Of a stretch of DNA of 64,000 bases, positions 25,014 through 33,308 are shown one piece after another. This DNA is from an uncultured Oscillospiraceae bacterium (GTDB taxonomy: Bacteria > Bacillota > Clostridia > Oscillospirales > Oscillospiraceae). Under the pieces are notes generated by a model. The model did not search any database and had not been told where the DNA came from. It was given only the letters and a program-made list of their open reading frames with translations. How positions within the stretch are numbered: the stretch's first letter is position 1; each line of letters begins with the position of its first letter. Made by a program: the position numbers and the translations under genes. The stretch is taken from positions 62,001 through 126,000 of the forward strand of contig CAKTQE010000002.1 in assembly GCA_934593275.1 (NCBI GenBank). Reading direction: 5' to 3'.

Positions 25014-25057
25014 TGTTAAGTCAGGGCCACAGGCGAAGCCTGTGGCCCTGACTTTTG
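25014..25057. terminator. bidirectional terminator between the GNAT gene and the TerY-type operon
   Basis: Perfect 14-bp inverted repeat (arms of GTCAGGGCCACAGG and its complement, 25019-25052) with a 4-5 nt loop. TTTTGTTTT follows on the plus strand and a shorter T-rich tract on the minus strand. Confidence 0.85.
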
Positions 25058-25059
25058 TT

Positions 25060-26760
25060 TTAGGGATTGCCGATGGATGGTAGGTAGTTTCCGGTGGCGG
25101 TGTTGTACACGTCTCCCCGGGAGCCGGAAACGTAGCTGTTGCCCAGGTCCTCACCGATCAGGGAGGCTAAAATGCCCTTCGTGTTTCTCGTATCAACGGT
25201 GCCGCCTGCGGTGCAGTCCTGGAGGGTGCCGCCGTTTGCGTAGGAAATGCCGCCCATGCCGGTGGGGGTCTTGACCTCAAGCTGGGCTGTGCAGCGCAGC
25301 AGCGTCCCGGTCTGATATTCCGCAATGCCGCCTACAAAACCGCACCTGTCAGCATTTAAGTATACGGAGCAGTCCTTGATGACGCCGGAATCTGTATTGT
25401 TCCGGCAAATACCGCCGATGGCATGGCAGTTGGCGGCGTAGACCGTGACCGCACAGCCCGTAACGGTGCCTCCATTGCTCAGAACCAATCCCCCGCCGTC
25501 GGCATTTTCCAGTTTGCCCCCATCCATGGTACAGGAAAGGGTGAGATTTTCGATTCGCCCCTCACTCGTCAGATTCCAGATCAGGGCTGCCGCCCGGATG
25601 CTTTCGCCGGGGGCAAAGTCATAGGAAAGGCCATAGATGGCATGGTTGTTTCCTTCCAGAACGCCGCTGAATTCTTTGATGGGAGAGAAGGTTCTTCCCC
25701 GGAAATCAATGTCGTTTTCCAGCCGGAACCAGGCGTTTGGCATGGCGCGCAGGTATTCTAAATCCTCCGGCGTTCTTAAAAGATAGGGGTCCCACTGGGT
25801 ACCGCTGCCCTGGCTTCCCCCAATGCTGTAGCCATCGGGCAGGTTTGTTGTCTGAACGCTGTTGGACCTGTCAAAGCTCTCGTTCATTCCCGGGTAGCTG
25901 GCATCCCAGTATGCCATTGCGGCCACAGGGGCCTGCAATTGGGCGGTAAAATGGCTGTTTTGGACGGTGCCGTAATTCTGGGAGGCTACGTAATAGAAAT
26001 ACTGAACGTATTTTGCGTTGACGGATACCGTGCAGTCTTTCACGGTTTCCCAGTTTCGGGCGGCAATGCCGCTGACATTCCAGCATCCATCCGTATTCAG
26101 CTCCACCTTGCATTTTGTAATGGAGCCGTTGTTTTCCTCTACAGCACCGTAGACAACGCCAAAACCCGTTCCGGTGGTCTGTAGGGTGCAATCATTGATT
26201 TTGCCGCTGTTGTTCTGGGCCACCGGTGCGTAAACGCCCAAATCCATGGCTTCCTCTGCCCCACCGGATGCGCTGCATTGGATGGTTGACAGCACATAGC
26301 AGCACTCAATGGTTCCCTGGTTGCTTCTGGCCATGCCGGAAATGTGGGCGGGAAGCCGGTTATCCATCTGAACCTTTACCTCAACGCCCAGGCTATGCAC
26401 CAGGGCCTTGCTGCCCAGGGAATCAAACAGCCCTGTGACCACATTGCTCTCGACCCGGGGAGACAGGCCAAAAATCCAGTGGCCGTTTCCGTTCAGGGTT
26501 CCGTTAAACTCCTCAATAGGAGAAAAAGTGGAGCCGTTCACCGTAATATCCTGGGCCAGCACAAAGCGGCCCTCCGGGTTTTTGCGCAGCTGTTCCAAGT
26601 CTTCCGCCGTGCGAAGTTCCGTGGTTTTCTTGTTTTTCCATAAATCCAATATAGAGGCTTCCGCCGGAACGGCCAGAATATCCAGGGCCGTTTTTCCGCC
26701 GCAGCTCAGCAGAAACGCCGTCAGTACGGTGGCAAGAAGCCAGCTTGTCCATCGTTTCAT
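25060..26760 (-). CDS. beta-helix lipoprotein with GLUG-like repeats
   Basis: 566 residues. N-terminal lipoprotein signal ends in AFLLSCGG, so C20 should be lipidated and the protein should sit on the outer face of the membrane. The mature part has two similar halves, each opening with a RT.EDLE.LR...... F.L..DI...G.TFSPI.EF.G.L.GN.H.I.GL pattern (about residues 50-100 and 335-390), followed by short Gly/Thr-rich repeats (GTIECCYV, GKINDCTL, GSITKCKV, GTVTGCAV, GVIKDCSV, GTLLRCTA) typical of right-handed beta-helices with GLUG-like motifs. Such proteins often mediate surface adhesion. It is the last gene of the TerY-type operon, 11 bp after the zinc protein, with TAGGAGG upstream. A role as receptor or target of the phosphorylation system is inference. 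Confidence 0.8.
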   Translation of the reverse strand: MKRWTSWLLATVLTAFLLSCGGKTALDILAVPAEASILDLWKNKKTTELRTAEDLEQLRKNPEGRFVLAQDITVNGSTFSPIEEFNGTLNGNGHWIFGLSPRVESNVVTGLFDSLGSKALVHSLGVEVKVQMDNRLPAHISGMARSNQGTIECCYVLSTIQCSASGGAEEAMDLGVYAPVAQNNSGKINDCTLQTTGTGFGVVYGAVEENNGSITKCKVELNTDGCWNVSGIAARNWETVKDCTVSVNAKYVQYFYYVASQNYGTVQNSHFTAQLQAPVAAMAYWDASYPGMNESFDRSNSVQTTNLPDGYSIGGSQGSGTQWDPYLLRTPEDLEYLRAMPNAWFRLENDIDFRGRTFSPIKEFSGVLEGNNHAIYGLSYDFAPGESIRAAALIWNLTSEGRIENLTLSCTMDGGKLENADGGGLVLSNGGTVTGCAVTVYAANCHAIGGICRNNTDSGVIKDCSVYLNADRCGFVGGIAEYQTGTLLRCTAQLEVKTPTGMGGISYANGGTLQDCTAGGTVDTRNTKGILASLIGEDLGNSYVSGSRGDVYNTATGNYLPSIGNP

Positions 26761-26771
26761 ATGTACGCCTC

Positions 26772-27122
26772 CTATAGGTCGCCGCCGCTGAAATCAAACT
26801 TGTCCTGTGATGTAACAACATCATATTCCCCGCCGCACCAGGGGCAGCTGTGGCGAGTCCCGCCGTGATAGCAGCTGATTTTCTTGCAGTGCCAGTCATA
26901 AAACCAGCCCTTGGTGCCGCAATAGGGGCAGCCGGGGTACTCTGCGGTCTGGGGCAAACAGCTTTTGATATTCATACTCGTGTACCCCTCCCGCCCTGCC
27001 CGGGCCTCGTCAATGGGGAACGCCCAGGTTTCGTACCATTCCCCATCCTCCATCTGCTGCACACGGATGCCGAAGGTCTTTCCGGACTGTCCGCATTTTT
27101 GCAGGATGACCATTGCATTCAT
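26772..27122 (-). CDS. stand-alone TerY-C-like zinc-binding protein
   Basis: 116 residues. N-terminal half is a small beta-rich region (VILQKCGQSGKTFGIRVQQM ... WYETWAFPIDEA). C-terminal half is Cys/His-rich: GCPYCGTKGWFYDWHCKKISCYHGGTRHSCPWCGGEYD, the double CPYCG/CPWCG arrangement of the TerY-C metal-binding domain. In many genomes this domain is fused behind a TerY von Willebrand A protein; here it is a separate gene two positions downstream of the vWA gene. It starts 4 bp after the phosphatase, whose last codons supply its GAGGAGG ribosome site. Inference: zinc-dependent adaptor of the kinase/phosphatase system. Confidence 0.8.
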   Translation of the reverse strand: MNAMVILQKCGQSGKTFGIRVQQMEDGEWYETWAFPIDEARAGREGYTSMNIKSCLPQTAEYPGCPYCGTKGWFYDWHCKKISCYHGGTRHSCPWCGGEYDVVTSQDKFDFSGGDL

Positions 27123-27126
27123 TGGC

Positions 27127-28068
27127 TCATTCCTCCTCTTTTTCTTCTGCTTTCTGTGCCTGTGGCTCCCAACCGTCAGGAGCGAGATAGGCCATCAGCA
27201 AAGTGGTATCGTCTCCGCAGCCCAAACGACTGGTTTCCGAGAGCCATTCCGGCAGATTCTCCTCCACCGCGTCAGGGCCATAGGTCTTTAAGGCTTCAAA
27301 ATACTGTGCGCAGGTCTGCCTGAAAGCCTCGTCATCCGCATAGCTGTTGGACAGCCCATCGGTAGACAGCAGGAACGCGCAGGGCAAATGCTGCTCCCAG
27401 GACTGAAAATGCACCGTGGAAGCCGCCGTGTCAGGGCCATAGGTCTTTAAGGCTTCAAAATGCTGCTCCCAGGGCTGAAAACGCACCGTGGAAACCGCCT
27501 TTTTCCAGGCCTCCCGGGAACACAGGGAATGGGACTCCACCCCTAAGAGCTTGTCCGCCACCACCACCGGCTGTACGCCCCCATCGTCGGCATAGGTAAT
27601 GTCCCCATCTCCGATTTGAAAGGCAAATACAAACGTCGGCGCAATCAGCAGTCCCAGCAGCGTGGTGCCGTACAGGCGGTAGAGGGCGTTCAGGTCCTCC
27701 TCCCCTGTCTGGGTCATGGGCATGGGCAGGCCTACTTTCAGGTGGTAGGCCTGTACATCCTCTTTCCAGGCCCGCTCCACCGTCTGGGCAAATTTCAGGC
27801 TGCCCTGGTGGTTGAGGTAGTCGGATAATAGGTCCCCGGCGTTTTGGAAGCCAGAGTGGAGTTCTTCGATGAGTTTGCAAAAGGTGTTCACCGCCAGCTC
27901 CGCACCCGTGCCGCTATAGGGGCAGGAACGGCTTCCGTGACCGTCCGCCACGGACAAAACCAGGCTTCCATCCTCCAATTCCCGGGACAACTTTCTATCC
28001 TGGCATTCCAGATTTCGCTGAATGTGGGTATAGCCCTGAATGGACTCCCCAAGAATTCGTTGCATCAT
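27127..28068 (-). CDS. PP2C-family Ser/Thr phosphatase
   Basis: 313 residues. Metal-dependent phosphatase: VLSVADGHGS (D42-G43-H44-G45) supplies the first metal ligands, LLSTDGLSN the third Asp (D237), and CGDDTTLLMAY the last (D286 and D287). The N-terminal QGYTHIQRNLECQDRK replaces the usual RxxNEDs substrate-phosphate Arg region with R18. Residues 193-216 form a chimeric 24-residue insertion: STVRFQPWEQH repeats at 217-227 and FEALKTYGPD repeats at 257-266. The insertion precedes the strand carrying D237 and keeps the frame. Expected to reverse phosphorylation by the operon's kinase. Confidence 0.9.
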   Translation of the reverse strand: MMQRILGESIQGYTHIQRNLECQDRKLSRELEDGSLVLSVADGHGSRSCPYSGTGAELAVNTFCKLIEELHSGFQNAGDLLSDYLNHQGSLKFAQTVERAWKEDVQAYHLKVGLPMPMTQTGEEDLNALYRLYGTTLLGLLIAPTFVFAFQIGDGDITYADDGGVQPVVVADKLLGVESHSLCSREAWKKAVSTVRFQPWEQHFEALKTYGPDTAASTVHFQSWEQHLPCAFLLSTDGLSNSYADDEAFRQTCAQYFEALKTYGPDAVEENLPEWLSETSRLGCGDDTTLLMAYLAPDGWEPQAQKAEEKEEE

Positions 28069-28095
28069 GTGGGTTCTCCCATGGCAGCGGTGTGC

Positions 28096-28836
28096 TTACC
28101 ACACATCTTCCGCGTTCACGTCATCCAAATCCGGCAGGGTGATGTTGCCGTCCAGCATACGGGGTTCCTGGGTTTCCTGGGAGGACTGCTCCGTCTTCTG
28201 CACATCCCCCACCTCCATAGGATTGCTGGTGGGGTTGGAAACGGCACTGGCAACGGTGGAGGCCCACTTGATGAAATGGGTCAGCACTTCCGGGTTGCCC
28301 GCATCCAGAACGGCCTCCGGGTTGCCGGTGAAAGCCTCCAGCACGCTCCGCTCTGCATCCTTGCCGATGGCAATGGCCACCTTTACGGCTTTCTTGCCCC
28401 AGGGCATTTTCAGCAGCTTTTCCAGGGGCCGCTTCCAGTCATCCGTGGGATAGCCATCGGTCAGCAGGACGATCACCGGGGGCAAGGCCCGGTCGGGCAT
28501 CGGGGGCATGGAAAGCTGTCCGGCCAGCAGTTCAAAGGCCTTGCCCATATCGGTAATGCCGTTGGCCTCCACATCCTCCCAGGCAAACTCCTCAATAGGC
28601 ACCGGCTCTGCCGTGACCCAGGATGCGCCGCTGGCGAATTTCAGCGTGTGGATGTACAGCTGGGCATTGGGGTTCCCCGCCGCCTCCTCCCGCATGGGTT
28701 CGATGCACTCCTGGATGGCGTGGTTCACCGCACCAATCCTGTCCCCGGCCATGGAGCTGGAGCAGTCCACCATCCAGAAAAAATGCAGGGGGCGATTGGC
28801 CAAAGCTCCTCCCGGAATTTTCAGTTTGTCAGCCAT
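28096..28836 (-). CDS. TerY-like von Willebrand factor A protein
   Basis: 246 residues. The metal-ion-dependent adhesion site is complete: DCSSSM (D24-x-S26-x-S28), NGITDMGKAF for the Thr, and VLLTDGYPTDD for the late Asp. Close to TerY of tellurite-resistance/stress operons, where TerY acts in the cytoplasm as a scaffold beside a kinase and PP2C phosphatase (TerY-P triad). The C-terminal 50 residues are acidic and proline-containing (NPMEVGDVQKTEQSSQETQE) and lack the zinc domain usually fused to TerY, which is encoded separately downstream. GGAGG-type site before the ATG; 22 bp after the kinase. Confidence 0.9.
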   Translation of the reverse strand: MADKLKIPGGALANRPLHFFWMVDCSSSMAGDRIGAVNHAIQECIEPMREEAAGNPNAQLYIHTLKFASGASWVTAEPVPIEEFAWEDVEANGITDMGKAFELLAGQLSMPPMPDRALPPVIVLLTDGYPTDDWKRPLEKLLKMPWGKKAVKVAIAIGKDAERSVLEAFTGNPEAVLDAGNPEVLTHFIKWASTVASAVSNPTSNPMEVGDVQKTEQSSQETQEPRMLDGNITLPDLDDVNAEDVW

Positions 28837-28858
28837 TTGTTATTCCTCCAAGTTATTA

Positions 28859-30148
28859 TTATTTGAATTCGCCTTTTTTAGAGCCAAAATCAATGCCCGC
28901 CCCCCGGACAATGGCAGCACTTCTGCCGGGGGCAATGGGCAGCTGGGTGCCATCGGTTTTGAGGTAGGTCCAGTTCTCCTGGCTGTCGTTTCGCAGACCC
29001 AAAAGGGCGGGATTTTTGGGGTTCCGAACCACCGTACCCACCACGGTGTGCATGTCGTAATCTCCGGAAATCTGGTGGCGGTAAAGCCGGGCATCGGGCT
29101 GGATCAGTAGTCTTCTTCTGCCGATTTGCAGCACCCCGGCCATGGCCACAGGGGCTTTGCAATTCCAGCAGCAATGGCCTTTTTCGGCCTTTGCGGTGTC
29201 GTAAAAAACCTCCGCCCCGCACTTGGGGCAATGGCGAATGCCGCTCATCATATTGGCCGCCAAGTCCATCCAGCGTTTCTCCGTCACCCGCCGGTTTGGC
29301 TCAAGCCCGGTGGTGAAACTCTCGGTAAACAAATCCTTGAGTTCCTGGGGATAGACCTGCCAATAGGCAATGGCGTTGCCATGGACCGCCGGGTCCGGGC
29401 GGTTGCTGTCGTCCGCAGGGTCATAGATGAACACCGGATGGGTGCCATAGAGCATTTCCTGGGCGGGGATGTCCCAGCATCTGATATTGGACTCCCGTTT
29501 GCCCAGCAGCGGATGGGCAATGCAGAACAGGTGGAACAGCAGTACCGCCAGGGAAAACTGGTCCGTATACCGGGAGGGTTTGGCCTCCCCCCGAATGATT
29601 TCCGGGGCCATAAAGCCGTAAGTACCTTTCACCAGCCCCGGCATGTCCTTGGGGGCCACATTGTCGTTGTCGCAAATCAGCACATCCCCGGTGTCCGGGT
29701 CAAAGAACAGGTTGTTGTAGTTGATGTCCCGGTAGCAGTTGCCGGAGGCGTGAAGCTTTTCGTAGGCTCCGGCCAGGTTGTAGGCGGTGCGGCAGCGGGT
29801 ATAGAGGGACATCTCCACCCGGCATTTCAGCAAATCCACCAGGCCCTTGTAGTTTTTCTGCCGCAGGGGCATGATGTAGCCAAAGGTCTTTCCCTCCGGG
29901 GCAAAAATCAGGTCCTCCGGCCACAAAAAGGCCTTGTCCGGTGCGCCCATTTCCACCAGCCGTTTCAGAATTTCCAGCTGCTGGGGCAGGGCGGTTTGGG
30001 GAAAGTACCATTTGAGGGCCATCTTCGCCCCCTCGGTCTCCACCTCGTAAACCTCCCCCTGTCCCCCGGCCCCCAGCAGGGCCAGGACCTTATAAGAGAT
30101 CTGCGTCTGGGAGACCAGAACAGTCCCCGGCTGTAATTGTCCGTTCAT
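28859..30148 (-). CDS. Ser/Thr protein kinase with C-terminal zinc ribbon
   Basis: 429 residues, no membrane segment. Kinase core: glycine loop GAGGQGEVYEV, Lys46 in MALKWY, catalytic YRDINYNNLFF (D141, N146; Tyr replaces the His of HRD), metal Asp160 in CDNDN instead of DFG, and MAPEII. All catalytic residues are present, so it should be active. Residues 307-330 form a zinc ribbon (CPKCG ... CCWNC), and the last 100 residues (NPALLGLRNDSQENW ... PIAPGRSAA ... GIDFG) resemble a degenerate FHA-like beta sandwich; the latter is a guess. Start behind AGGAGTG. The kinase, vWA and PP2C genes together make a TerY-P type triad. Confidence 0.88.
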   Translation of the reverse strand: MNGQLQPGTVLVSQTQISYKVLALLGAGGQGEVYEVETEGAKMALKWYFPQTALPQQLEILKRLVEMGAPDKAFLWPEDLIFAPEGKTFGYIMPLRQKNYKGLVDLLKCRVEMSLYTRCRTAYNLAGAYEKLHASGNCYRDINYNNLFFDPDTGDVLICDNDNVAPKDMPGLVKGTYGFMAPEIIRGEAKPSRYTDQFSLAVLLFHLFCIAHPLLGKRESNIRCWDIPAQEMLYGTHPVFIYDPADDSNRPDPAVHGNAIAYWQVYPQELKDLFTESFTTGLEPNRRVTEKRWMDLAANMMSGIRHCPKCGAEVFYDTAKAEKGHCCWNCKAPVAMAGVLQIGRRRLLIQPDARLYRHQISGDYDMHTVVGTVVRNPKNPALLGLRNDSQENWTYLKTDGTQLPIAPGRSAAIVRGAGIDFGSKKGEFK

Positions 30149-30160
30149 TGTTTTTCACTC

Positions 30161-31081
30161 CTATGTTTTTTCTGATGAAGATTGGCTGTTGAAGTTTTTT
30201 TCACACGCTGTAGATCTCCACAAATCCCAAATAAAACCAAAAACCACATAGCCCATCATTCCTAGAACAAACTCCTGCCAAACCCATGTTCCAACCAATG
30301 GACTATCCCGACAAAAGGCTACTAGATCGGCCGCTGCAAATAATCCGCCTGCCGTGTATATCGCAGAATATGGGATCATAAGAAATCCTATAACTTCTTT
30401 CAGCAGAGGGCTTCTTGAAACCAATGCGCCGTATACACCGGGGTACCCCGCTCCCTCATAGGAAAAAAGGCTAAAAAGGCTCCACACATACAGTATAAAA
30501 TGTGCCAAACAAAGCAAAACGGAAAGAGTGCCATCTGTTTCCGCTACACCTGCGAATACCAGTACCAGTGCAATCGCATAGGAAATTGCCCCGTACAGCC
30601 CAATCACAAACATAATACGTGCGAAAATCGACATTCCCTGCCAGTGCTTGCCCGCAGAGGCAAGTACCGCATTTTGCTGTCGCTTCTGCCTTGCAGGCTG
30701 CTTTTCAGAGGGCTTTATTACCGGCTTCTCTTTCTTCTCCTGCCCAGCTATGGCCGGGGCCTGTGTACCCAGTGCCGTTTTCCAGAAGGTGCTGCTGATT
30801 TCCAGGGCGCATTCCTGCTGCATACCGTAGGCGTCCATCATTTCCCCGACCAGGCGGTGGTATTCCCGCTGCTGTTTTCGAGGGGCTTCGTCCCGGAGAG
30901 CCAGAATGCGGGTGTTTCCTCCGCATTTTAGAAAAATATCCAATTGATTTTTCTGCGCCCGGAGCTGTCCGCCGGAAAAATCCGCAAACAAACCGGAAAG
31001 CCGCCGCCCGTCCGCAAAGGCATCCGGATATGCTTCATAAATCTCCTTTAAGACCGACTCCGTGCTTTTCTTTTTGAACAC
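30161..31081 (-). CDS. membrane protein paralogue 1 with N-terminal helical domain
   Basis: 306 residues from a GTG at 31079-31081, 7 bp behind AGGAGGAG. Domain 1 (residues about 5-100) is helical: VLKEIYEAYPDAFADGRRLS, QKNQLDIFLKCG, and a last helix ending SSTFWKTALGTQAP. It resembles the 90-residue helical domain ending in W-x-x-ALG found at the ends of many clostridial multidomain signalling proteins. A Pro/Lys/Glu linker (residues about 103-135) leads to a C-terminal region with four or five membrane helices. The same gene is present three times in a row. Last of the three and 12 bp before the kinase. Function unknown; a membrane anchor or sensor for the kinase is inference. Confidence 0.8.
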   Translation of the reverse strand: MFKKKSTESVLKEIYEAYPDAFADGRRLSGLFADFSGGQLRAQKNQLDIFLKCGGNTRILALRDEAPRKQQREYHRLVGEMMDAYGMQQECALEISSTFWKTALGTQAPAIAGQEKKEKPVIKPSEKQPARQKRQQNAVLASAGKHWQGMSIFARIMFVIGLYGAISYAIALVLVFAGVAETDGTLSVLLCLAHFILYVWSLFSLFSYEGAGYPGVYGALVSRSPLLKEVIGFLMIPYSAIYTAGGLFAAADLVAFCRDSPLVGTWVWQEFVLGMMGYVVFGFIWDLWRSTACEKNFNSQSSSEKT

Positions 31082-31119
31082 GCCGCTCTCCTCCTGTCCC
31101 CCGGCTGTAATTGTCCGTT
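31082..31119 (-). pseudogene. remnant of the kinase gene 5' end before paralogue 1
   Basis: The first 23 bases of the kinase gene (ATGAACGG through CAGCCGGGG) are repeated exactly, complete with the AGGAG-type site, then jump to a sequence matching the kinase glycine-loop codons (GGGGGACAGG). The resulting short frame runs into paralogue 1 out of frame, so it might work as a leader peptide. Confidence 0.7.
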
Positions 31120-31141
31120 CATTGTTTTTCTCTCCTTCTTT

Positions 31142-31954
31142 CTACTGCCACATAGAGCCGTTCTTTTTTGTAGATTTAAAAAGTCTGACAAGCCAGACTA
31201 TGGTGTATAGCCAACAGGCGAAAACACCTATCGTAGGTCCATCTGTTAGAAACAAAAGAAATAGCCACCCAAATAGAACATCAAAAAAAGCAAAAGTGCT
31301 GAATAACTCAGAATATATGACTGATTCCTCTATCCAGGAAAGCTCCCTGGGAAGCATGTAGAAGACCTTTGCTCCAACATCCAACAGATAAATCCCGCCC
31401 AATAGATAAAGGTTCCACATATAATTTGCAAAACCATCTGTGATCATGACCTGTACCAACCGAATCGTACAGGCGATCACGCCATAGGCACCGACCACAA
31501 ACATCAGCCGCGCAAAGCCGGACATTTTCCCAAAGAGCTTCAGCAGTCCCTTTATTCGTTGCCCTCGTGGCTGCTTTTCCGATGGCTTTTTCGCCGGCTT
31601 CTCTTTCTGCTCCTGCCCACCCATGGCCGGGGCCTGTGTACCCAGTGCCGTTTTCCAGAAGATGCTGCTGATTTCCAGGGCGCGTTCCTGCTGCATACTG
31701 TAGGCGTCCGTCATTTCTCCGACCAGGCGGTGGAATTCCCGCTGCTGTATCCGAGGGGCTTCGTCCCGGAGGGCCAGAATGCGGGTGTTTCCTCCGCATT
31801 TCAGGAAAATATCCAATTGATTTTTCTGCGCCCGGAGCTGTCCGCCGGAAAAATCCGCAAACAAACCGGAAAGCCGCCGCCCGTCTGCAAAGGCATCCGG
31901 GTATGCTTCATAAATCTCCTTTAAGACCGACTCCGTGCTTTTCTTTTTGAACAC
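31142..31954 (-). CDS. membrane protein paralogue 2 with N-terminal helical domain
   Basis: 270 residues from GTG 31952-31954, chosen because it has the same AGGAGGAG spacing and the same first residues (FKKKSTESVLKE) as paralogue 1; an in-frame GTG at 32014 lies in a kinase remnant. The N-terminal helical domain is almost identical to that of paralogue 1, down to FWKTALGTQAP, but the membrane half is different and shorter (FARLMFVVGAYGVIACTIRLV, LYLLGGIYLLDVGAKVFYML, FAFFDVLFGWLFLLFL). So the cytoplasmic domain is conserved while the membrane part has diverged or been swapped. 60 bp upstream of paralogue 1. Confidence 0.78.
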   Translation of the reverse strand: MFKKKSTESVLKEIYEAYPDAFADGRRLSGLFADFSGGQLRAQKNQLDIFLKCGGNTRILALRDEAPRIQQREFHRLVGEMTDAYSMQQERALEISSIFWKTALGTQAPAMGGQEQKEKPAKKPSEKQPRGQRIKGLLKLFGKMSGFARLMFVVGAYGVIACTIRLVQVMITDGFANYMWNLYLLGGIYLLDVGAKVFYMLPRELSWIEESVIYSELFSTFAFFDVLFGWLFLLFLTDGPTIGVFACWLYTIVWLVRLFKSTKKNGSMWQ

Positions 31955-32048
31955 ACCGCTCTCCTCCTGCCCCCCGGACCCCAGCAGGGCCAGGACCTTG
32001 TAAAGAATCCACACCCGGAAGACCGGAACAGTCCCCCGGCTGTCATTG
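31955..32048 (-). pseudogene. degenerate copy of the kinase gene 5' end before paralogue 2
   Basis: About 90 bp align with the first 90 bp of the kinase gene: MNGQ start codons, then a stop after four codons, then small indels, then the codons for YKVLALLG and the glycine-loop region, where GGACAGGGGGAG has become GGGCAGGAGGAG, the ribosome binding site of paralogue 2. Confidence 0.75.
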
Positions 32049-32108
32049 ACCGTTCATTGCTTTTCCCATTGTTTTTCTGATGACCCACTGTAGTGGTTCT
32101 CTATTTTT

Positions 32109-33164
32109 CTACTTTTTGTGATAAGCGTATTTCTTGCACGCTATAGGCCTCCACCAAGCCCAAACAAAAGTAAACAAACCGTATGCCAGTAGGCCGAACG
32201 CTAGAAAATCGCCCCACGTTCCATCCAATATTGCATTCAAACAGAGACCATATACAGAGAAACCGCTGCTCGCCATGTAGAGAGTCCAATAAGAAGCAGC
32301 CACCATTGTTACCAATAGTGCTAATGGAAAGTCCGCTAATTTTGGCCGTGGGGTGATTATTGAAACAAGTGCGCCGTATACACCAAGGTACCCCGCTTCC
32401 TCATTGGAAAAAAGGCGAAAAAGGTACCACACATACAGCAGAAAATGTACCAGACAATACAAAACGGGAAAAGTGTCATCTGTTTCCGCTACACCTGTGA
32501 ATACCAGTACCAGTACAATCGCATAGGAAATTGCCCCATACAGCCCGATCACAAACATAATACGTGCGAAAATCGACATTCCCTGCCAGTGCTTGCCCGC
32601 AGAGGCAAGCACCGCATTTTGCTGTCGCTTCTGCCTTGCAGGCTGCTTTTCAGACGGCTTTTCAGAGGGCTTTATTACCGGCTTCTCTTTCTGCTCCTGT
32701 CCACCCATGGTCGGGGCCTGTGTACCCAGGGGCTTTTTCGCCGGCTTCTCGTTCTTCTCCTGCCCAGCCATGGTCGGGGCCTGTGTATCCAGGGGCTTTT
32801 TCGCTGGCTTCTCGTTCTTCTCCTGCCCAGCCATGGCCGGGGCCTGTGTACCCAGTGCCGTTTTCCAGAAGGTGCTGCTGATTTCCAGGGCAAGTTCCTG
32901 CCGCATACCGTAGGTATCCGTCATTTCTCCGACCAGGCGGCGGTATTCCCGCTGCTGTATCCGAGGGACTTCGTCCCGGAGGGCCAGAATACGGGTGTTT
33001 CCCCTGCATTCCAGAAAAATGTCCAATTGTTTTTTCTGCGCCCGGAGCTGCCCGCCGGAAAAATCCGCAATCAAACCGGAAAGCCGCTGCCCGTCCGCAA
33101 AGGCATCCGGGTATGCTTCATAAATCTCCTTTAAGACCGTCTCCATGCTTTTCTTTTTGAACAC
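32109..33164 (-). CDS. membrane protein paralogue 3 with repeat linker
   Basis: 351 residues from GTG 33162-33164 behind AGGAGGAG. First gene of the operon. N-terminal helical domain as in paralogues 1 and 2 (ETVLKEIYEAYPDAFADGQR to SSTFWKTALGTQAP). The linker is expanded by three 21-residue repeats (unit TQAPTMAGQEKNEKPAKKPL). The membrane half begins like paralogue 1 (KHWQGMSIFARIMFVIGLYG ... YAIVLVLVFTGVAETD), so paralogues 1 and 3 are the closer pair there. Five hydrophobic segments are visible. Function unknown. The high similarity over the first 300 bp of all three suggests recent duplication or gene conversion. Confidence 0.8.
   Translation of the reverse strand: MFKKKSMETVLKEIYEAYPDAFADGQRLSGLIADFSGGQLRAQKKQLDIFLECRGNTRILALRDEVPRIQQREYRRLVGEMTDTYGMRQELALEISSTFWKTALGTQAPAMAGQEKNEKPAKKPLDTQAPTMAGQEKNEKPAKKPLGTQAPTMGGQEQKEKPVIKPSEKPSEKQPARQKRQQNAVLASAGKHWQGMSIFARIMFVIGLYGAISYAIVLVLVFTGVAETDDTFPVLYCLVHFLLYVWYLFRLFSNEEAGYLGVYGALVSIITPRPKLADFPLALLVTMVAASYWTLYMASSGFSVYGLCLNAILDGTWGDFLAFGLLAYGLFTFVWAWWRPIACKKYAYHKK
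32708..32860 (-). repeat. 63-bp tandem repeats in paralogue 3
   Basis: Unit boundaries at 32708, 32771 and 32834, exactly 63 bp apart; the first two units differ at a few bases and the third is partial. Each encodes 21 residues of Lys/Pro/Glu-rich linker, so copy-number change keeps the frame. Confidence 0.9.
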
Positions 33165-33222
33165 GCCGCTCTCCTCCTGTCCCCCGGACCTGTACAAAGG
33201 ACGGGGGCGTTATCTTATGGCT

Positions 33223-33231
33223 ATTATAGCA
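33223..33231 (-). promoter_or_regulatory. extended -10 promoter of the TerY-type operon
   Basis: Minus strand TGCTATAAT (TATAAT at 33223-33228). No good -35 at 17 bp, so this fits an extended -10 or an activated promoter. A 6-bp inverted repeat CCCCCG/CGGGGG (33181-33186, 33202-33207) lies in the leader. Confidence 0.6.
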
Positions 33232-33259
33232 CACAGAACCGCCTCCATCATCTGCCAAG

Positions 33260-33308
33260 AACGACGTTATGGTGCGAATTTTGACGGTTCGCTGCTAAAA
33301 ACGACGTT
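33260..33308. promoter_or_regulatory. pair of AACGACGTT palindromes between divergent promoters
   Basis: AACGACGTT, itself palindromic around its central base, occurs at 33260-33268 and 33300-33308, 40 bp apart, between the promoters of the TerY-type operon and the histidine kinase operon. Candidate operator, possibly for the LytTR regulator next door. Confidence 0.45.

Follow-up and report, generated by a model that had tools for sequence, protein, structure and literature searches.

A TerY-P kinase/phosphatase/vWA operon coupled to an array of paralogues with a common helical head domain: a candidate phospho-switch with exchangeable clients

Which proteins are acted on by the kinase and phosphatase of a TerY-P triad? 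Excerpts of PMC11090510 and PMC7699616 define the triad as a vWA protein, a PP2C phosphatase and a Ser/Thr kinase with a zinc ribbon or OB-fold, and stand-alone TerY-P is described as antiphage in other bacteria in excerpts of PMC10889362, PMC7699616 and PMC11090510. The question arises at a locus within a 64,000-nucleotide stretch from an uncultured Oscillospiraceae bacterium (contig CAKTQE010000002.1, positions 62,001 to 126,000), the whole of which is called the window here. An earlier, sequence-only reading had proposed that eight same-strand genes form one unit, and the ORF list of the window confirmed this: between 33164 and 25060 the minus strand carries eight ORFs, in the order of transcription P1, P2, P3, kinase, vWA, PP2C, TerY-C and lipoprotein. 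The gaps from P3 through the lipoprotein gene are tight (4-27 nt), a strong terminator-like hairpin closes the unit, and remnants of the kinase 5' end lie inside the P2-P3 gap (60 nt) and the P1-P2 gap (154 nt). The starts of P1-P3 were set by the common GTG-TTC-AAA (33164, 31954 and 31081); the P1 ORF is open from a TTG at 33197 too, and the mechanical start of the P2 ORF, 32014, falls within a kinase remnant. The features are as follows.

25018..25054, both strands listed: terminator-like hairpin of 17 pairs after the last gene (hairpin scan)
25060..26760, minus strand: last gene of the unit, encoding a putative lipoprotein that contains repeats and is accessory (ORF; non-recurrent in the neighbourhoods checked)
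26772..27122, minus strand: stand-alone TerY-C zinc protein (PF15616, TerY_C, 6.3e-9)
27127..28068, minus strand: PP2C phosphatase (PP2C_2, 8e-37)
28096..28836, minus strand: TerY-like vWA protein with DxSxS (VWA, 6.6e-6; terY homology)
28859..30148, minus strand: Ser/Thr protein kinase with zinc ribbon and strand-rich C-terminal part (Pkinase, 1.2e-14; model pLDDT 94.1)
30161..31081, minus strand: P3, third paralogue, head P2-like, first tail part P1-like (ORF, repeats, sequence reading)
30758..31081, minus strand: P3 head domain, modelled as seven helices, pLDDT 94.3 (head profile and structure model)
31096..31152, minus strand: shorter kinase 5'-end remnant between P2 and P3, a duplication scar (57-nt repeat; alignment)
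31142..31954, minus strand: P2, second paralogue, head and class B hydrophobic tail (ORF, repeats, sequence reading)
31631..31954, minus strand: P2 head domain (head profile)
31961..32087, minus strand: kinase 5'-end remnant in the P1-P2 gap, a duplication scar (repeats of 76 nt at 82% and 57 nt at 77%; alignment)
32109..33164, minus strand: P1, the first of the membrane paralogues, composed of head, a linker that holds three 21-residue repeats and class A hydrophobic tail (ORF, repeats, sequence reading)
32841..33164, minus strand: P1 head domain (head profile)
33223..33231, minus strand: candidate extended -10 element TGC-TATAAT upstream of P1 (by eye; absent from the promoter-scan output)
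33252..33308, minus strand: two 17-bp direct repeats (33252-33268 and 33292-33308), candidate regulator site (repeat count against chance)

The two 17-bp repeats are spaced 40 bp start to start (2 found vs 0.02 expected by chance) and sit where the promoter regions of P1 and of a divergently oriented GHKL/LytTR-type two-component pair meet. The surroundings are of housekeeping type, with topoisomerase subunits, MreB, RecD2, RecA and DNA polymerase III among the window proteins scanned and no mobile element among them. In line with the sequence-only reading, TerD and TerC were not found: neither was detected in the eight genes or their two neighbours (Pfam, E<=1) or in 18 further window proteins (E<=1e-5), a scan that covered part of the window ORFs, and the locus differs in this respect from the Ter (tellurite) system.

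Judged by its domains and homologies, the core of the operon is a TerY-P triad. The proposed triad with a separate TerY-C protein is borne out by the Pfam matches, and the kinase indeed carries a zinc ribbon, with CxxC pairs at 307 and 327. In kinase, vWA and PP2C alike, the motifs for catalysis and metal binding can be read in the sequence. Plasmid records, the majority from enterobacteria, were matched in large numbers by the vWA (2238) and the kinase (2255); among the vWA matches listed one is annotated terY, at about 30% identity, and the kinase profile recovers the ter-plasmid kinase at 9.7e-46. The window therefore resembles TerY-P, as far as the excerpts cited above describe it, in the three enzymes or domains, the zinc ribbon after the kinase domain, the TerY-C module and the ter-plasmid homology. 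It differs in its separate TerY-C, which in the ter plasmid is joined to a vWA, in the absence of TerD/TerC from the proteins scanned and in the coupling to head-domain clients described below. Stand-alone TerY-C also adjoins a kinase or triad in five other loci (L001, L003, L004, L068 and L094) and accompanies the triad in a Prevotella plasmid and two spirochaetes. The window vWA, PP2C and TerY-C were matched by no PADLOC model, and neither were related ter-type proteins. Excerpts of PMC7159879 report a kinase-zinc ribbon-beta-rich, PP2C and vWA theme in the GAP1-N2 systems of actinobacteria. The window shares this theme, in that a kinase which carries a zinc ribbon and ends in a strand-rich part adjoins PP2C and a stand-alone vWA; among the eight genes, however, neither a GTPase nor a GAP1 gene was identified, and the head array does not appear in the excerpted GAP1-N2 description. 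Within the PP2C gene, an internal partial duplication at 27264-27499 (55-nt and 42-nt repeats) inserts repeated sequence ahead of the STDG motif.

The three genes in front of the triad had been called paralogous membrane proteins. Their paralogy is firm, as P1-P3 are true duplicates with 300-nt repeats at 86-92%, far above chance, while the label "membrane" refers to hydropathy peaks only. The kinase remnants in the P1-P2 and P2-P3 gaps (76 nt at 82%, and a 57-nt family at 72-77%) are of unequal length, and their joins coincide with kinase Gly-loop codons that resemble the paralogue leader. Such remnants fit tandem duplication of a client gene together with the kinase start, as judged from the alignments. 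The P3 head is 98% identical to that of P2 over the first 180 nt (comparisons with P1 gave 96 and 90%), and the first part of its tail is P1-like at 97%; exchange thus took place as well.

Among metagenome variants, heads are more conserved than tails. The paralogue family matched 129 clusters, of which 120 were listed; in the 97 variants that could be compared (the rest lack the anchor motifs), mean identity was 93.8% for heads and 48.4% for tails. A kinase-derived N-terminal extension is present on 10 of the 120 listed variants, and the 63-nt repeats at 32643-32865 of P1, which encode the 21-residue linker repeat, correspond to 0 to 3 motif copies in the listed variants. Against these 129 clusters, a number inflated by several paralogues per genome, stand at least seven kinase relatives that are at least 88% identical to that of the window, two of them partial, among the 120 listed of 2369. 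The 108 sequences used for tail clustering fell into 2, 12 and 39 clusters at 50, 70 and 80% identity; as these are metagenome proteins read on their own, we do not speak of "active shuffling".

What P1-P3 have in common is a head of about 105 residues. No Pfam family matched P1-P3 at E<=1, in a library that includes EAD1, and the seven-helix model of the P3 head gave no significant PDB or viral structure match. A profile built from 13 heads of other loci, with none from the window, nevertheless matched P1 (1.3e-8), P2 (6.7e-8) and P3 (1.5e-8) among 3330 ORFs. Upon iteration it converged on 47 of 2612 ORFs, 43 of which make up set A1. Head carriers span Firmicutes and spirochaetes and include a gammaproteobacterial plasmid, and their tails differ between lineages. 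In 71 head proteins, for which 25 of 93 Pfam families are listed, the tails include RCC1_2 (25), LRR_5 (20) and Sel1 (11), and more rarely DUF6273 (4), TPR_2 (3), WD40 (1) and UvrD (1). Further partners are a DEAD helicase, Clp_N, a ClpX zinc finger and Tim44; one locus (L053) joins the head to a vWA, and none was seen on the core components of the window, the kinase included. Helicase tails in the nearest relatives of the window score best with GajB (1.1e-86) and DpdF (2.7e-45), which is a hint only, since models of this sort are broadly matched by helicases of the UvrD and DEAD types. One helicase client adjoins a HIRAN protein. An FHA-like end of the client in L002 was weak (2.8e-4, under its cut-off) and was set aside. 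From these sequence comparisons, the membrane tail appears as one flavour among several.

We then compared the distribution of heads and triads. Across 295 genomes of one order (thresholds: kinase E<=1e-25, head E<=1e-3), the kinase was found in 42, the head in 40 and both in 35 (Fisher 4.7e-33); the head counts rest on the candidates scored, first-look candidates being more numerous in some genomes, and the association is partly circular, because the head profile was drawn partly from such loci. Seven of the 42 kinase genomes have no head match and five of the 40 head genomes no kinase. A head lies within 10 kb of 23 of 46 kinase loci and a kinase within 10 kb of 37 of 125 head matches, and in 13 genomes of the order both are present and unlinked. 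The held-out family was the one containing the genome closest in its atpD gene, which showed 79% DNA identity in a comparison of 391 genomes from the class. Kinase and head were each found in 4 of its 250 genomes, three of them in common (p 6.2e-6), the distances between head and kinase being 0.2, 0.9 and 2.7 kb. Altogether 29 of 52 kinase-bearing neighbourhoods, many of which end at contig ends, contain a head gene. Among the 198 spirochaete genomes sampled the kinase occurs in four and the head in two, with one genome having both; two spirochaete triads with TerY-C have no head gene nearby, and head-triad adjacency was met in Treponema loci too. On the Methylomonas plasmid CP157007.1 (L119:11834-16370) five head genes come after the triad. 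Their heads are near-identical; two are linked to Clp_N and ClpX zinc finger with the head C-terminal and one to Tim44, and a link to Clp proteases is possible. A near-complete contig of 3.3 Mb (C1 of G075, L096-L103) has 15 head matches, 12 of them distant from the triad, possibly clients that act in trans.

The proposed coupling of the triad to paralogue-head genes thus recurs in other genomes. Its specificity for membrane proteins did not survive, since in other lineages this head bears RCC1, LRR_5, Sel1, WD40, TPR, DUF6273, helicase and Clp-type modules. Triad plus head genes were found together in other genomes and the full set of eight genes was not, so that the refuting condition named in the sequence-only reading applies to the set of eight and spares triad plus head genes. 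As a separate observation, the Prevotella plasmid pE2-28 (L118:8411-19242) carries HTH, TerY-C, kinase, vWA, PP2C, further genes, a UvrD-like exonuclease and FtsK; two of its genes, one with an FGE-sulfatase, start with a head-like helical stretch by eye, to which the head profile gave no match.

The lipoprotein behaved differently from what had been suggested. Its lipobox was read by eye, and the description as GLUG-type comes down to a resemblance, as the GLUG Pfam family gave no match at E<=1, nor at 0.05. No relative lies beside the triads of L001-L087, where the window copy stands alone among the ORFs, and searches of four whole triad-bearing genomes (G823, G740, G685 and G146) revealed none near the triad. 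Matches in G823, G685, G146 and G485 are large proteins at other sites, and G740 has none. We therefore do not count the lipoprotein as a member of the system.

We consider it probable that the locus encodes a phospho-switch of TerY-P type whose clients share the head domain and carry exchangeable tails, by analogy to effector-associated domains. The triad, with its kinase, PP2C, vWA and separate TerY-C zinc module, would act on clients that have one helical head; the head would dock a client onto the triad, and the tail would be the exchangeable module. In the window the tails appear to be two classes of hydrophobic, membrane-type domains, and we therefore propose that phosphorylation by the kinase, reversed by PP2C, would gate a membrane event. 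The output would most likely be a permeability change or similar, during stress or phage attack. The array may have grown by tandem duplication of a client gene with the start of the kinase gene, plus exchange of heads and tails. The head joined to a vWA in L053 and the helicase clients are hints in favour of this reading; kinase genomes without a head match, head genomes without the kinase, head matches distant from the triad, the two spirochaete triads with no head gene nearby and the missing PADLOC matches count against it.

The paralogues could instead sense envelope or external signals that the triad relays inward, their tails diversifying for different ligands. Divergent tails next to constant heads would suit this idea, as would the binding-type repeats (RCC1, LRR_5, Sel1, TPR, WD40) on many relatives and the lipoprotein gene at the end of the unit. 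We nevertheless regard it as unlikely, as the helicase, Clp_N and ClpX zinc finger joined to the head elsewhere are not receptors and the lipoprotein was not recurrent in the loci and genomes checked. We lean toward the membrane tails being outputs rather than inputs, output being at least as likely as sensing.

A phospho-switch with no phage link, regulating envelope or stress proteins as part of ordinary housekeeping, would agree with the housekeeping neighbours, with the absence of mobile elements from the proteins scanned and with the paired RCC1 clients that are stable in one order. Such an ordinary role is made improbable by the scattered occurrence of the kinase (4 of 250 genomes in the nearest family that was searched), by relatives on plasmids and by the antiphage activity of stand-alone TerY-P in excerpts of PMC10889362 and PMC7699616. 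Most improbable is that head genes and triad are linked merely through an inherited common region: the 12 of 15 head matches away from the kinase in the near-complete G075 contig would be expected then, but heads and triads co-occur and adjoin each other both in one order and in the held-out family, and they are neighbours again on a gammaproteobacterial plasmid and in Treponema loci.

The phospho-switch with exchangeable clients has its closest parallel in the effector-associated domains (EADs) of PMC7159879, described in excerpts of that paper as small, non-enzymatic, mostly helical domains on many different modules, with adjacent and dispersed copies. The head is likewise joined to many modules, has adjacent and dispersed copies, and copies within one array are more alike (here 45% vs 22%). 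It differs from the EADs so described in that the window heads have no Pfam match at E<=1, EAD1 included, and in that the core is a kinase triad, with the head present on one vWA (L053) and not seen on the kinase. The triad and, from the same excerpts, effector-recruiting domains are already known; the head is the new part. The combination of triad and head domain was not found in the open-licence papers searched, a scope outside which the 2012 TerY-P paper (Anantharaman et al.) falls.

Tentatively, and with somewhat less than even confidence, we suggest that the head is an unnamed recruitment domain serving TerY-P kinases, such that one phospho-core has many exchangeable clients, near and dispersed. 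In this lineage the membrane clients may make up an array that recombines, its heads staying constant and its tails diverging fast, within an immune or stress system that is run by phosphorylation and has interchangeable effectors. The targets of TerY-P kinases are unnamed in the antiphage accounts, as excerpted from PMC10889362, PMC7699616 and PMC11090510, and the head proteins beside the triad are candidate clients whose tail types (membrane, helicase, Clp-linked) predict outputs. This would extend the logic of effector-associated domains to kinase-centred systems.
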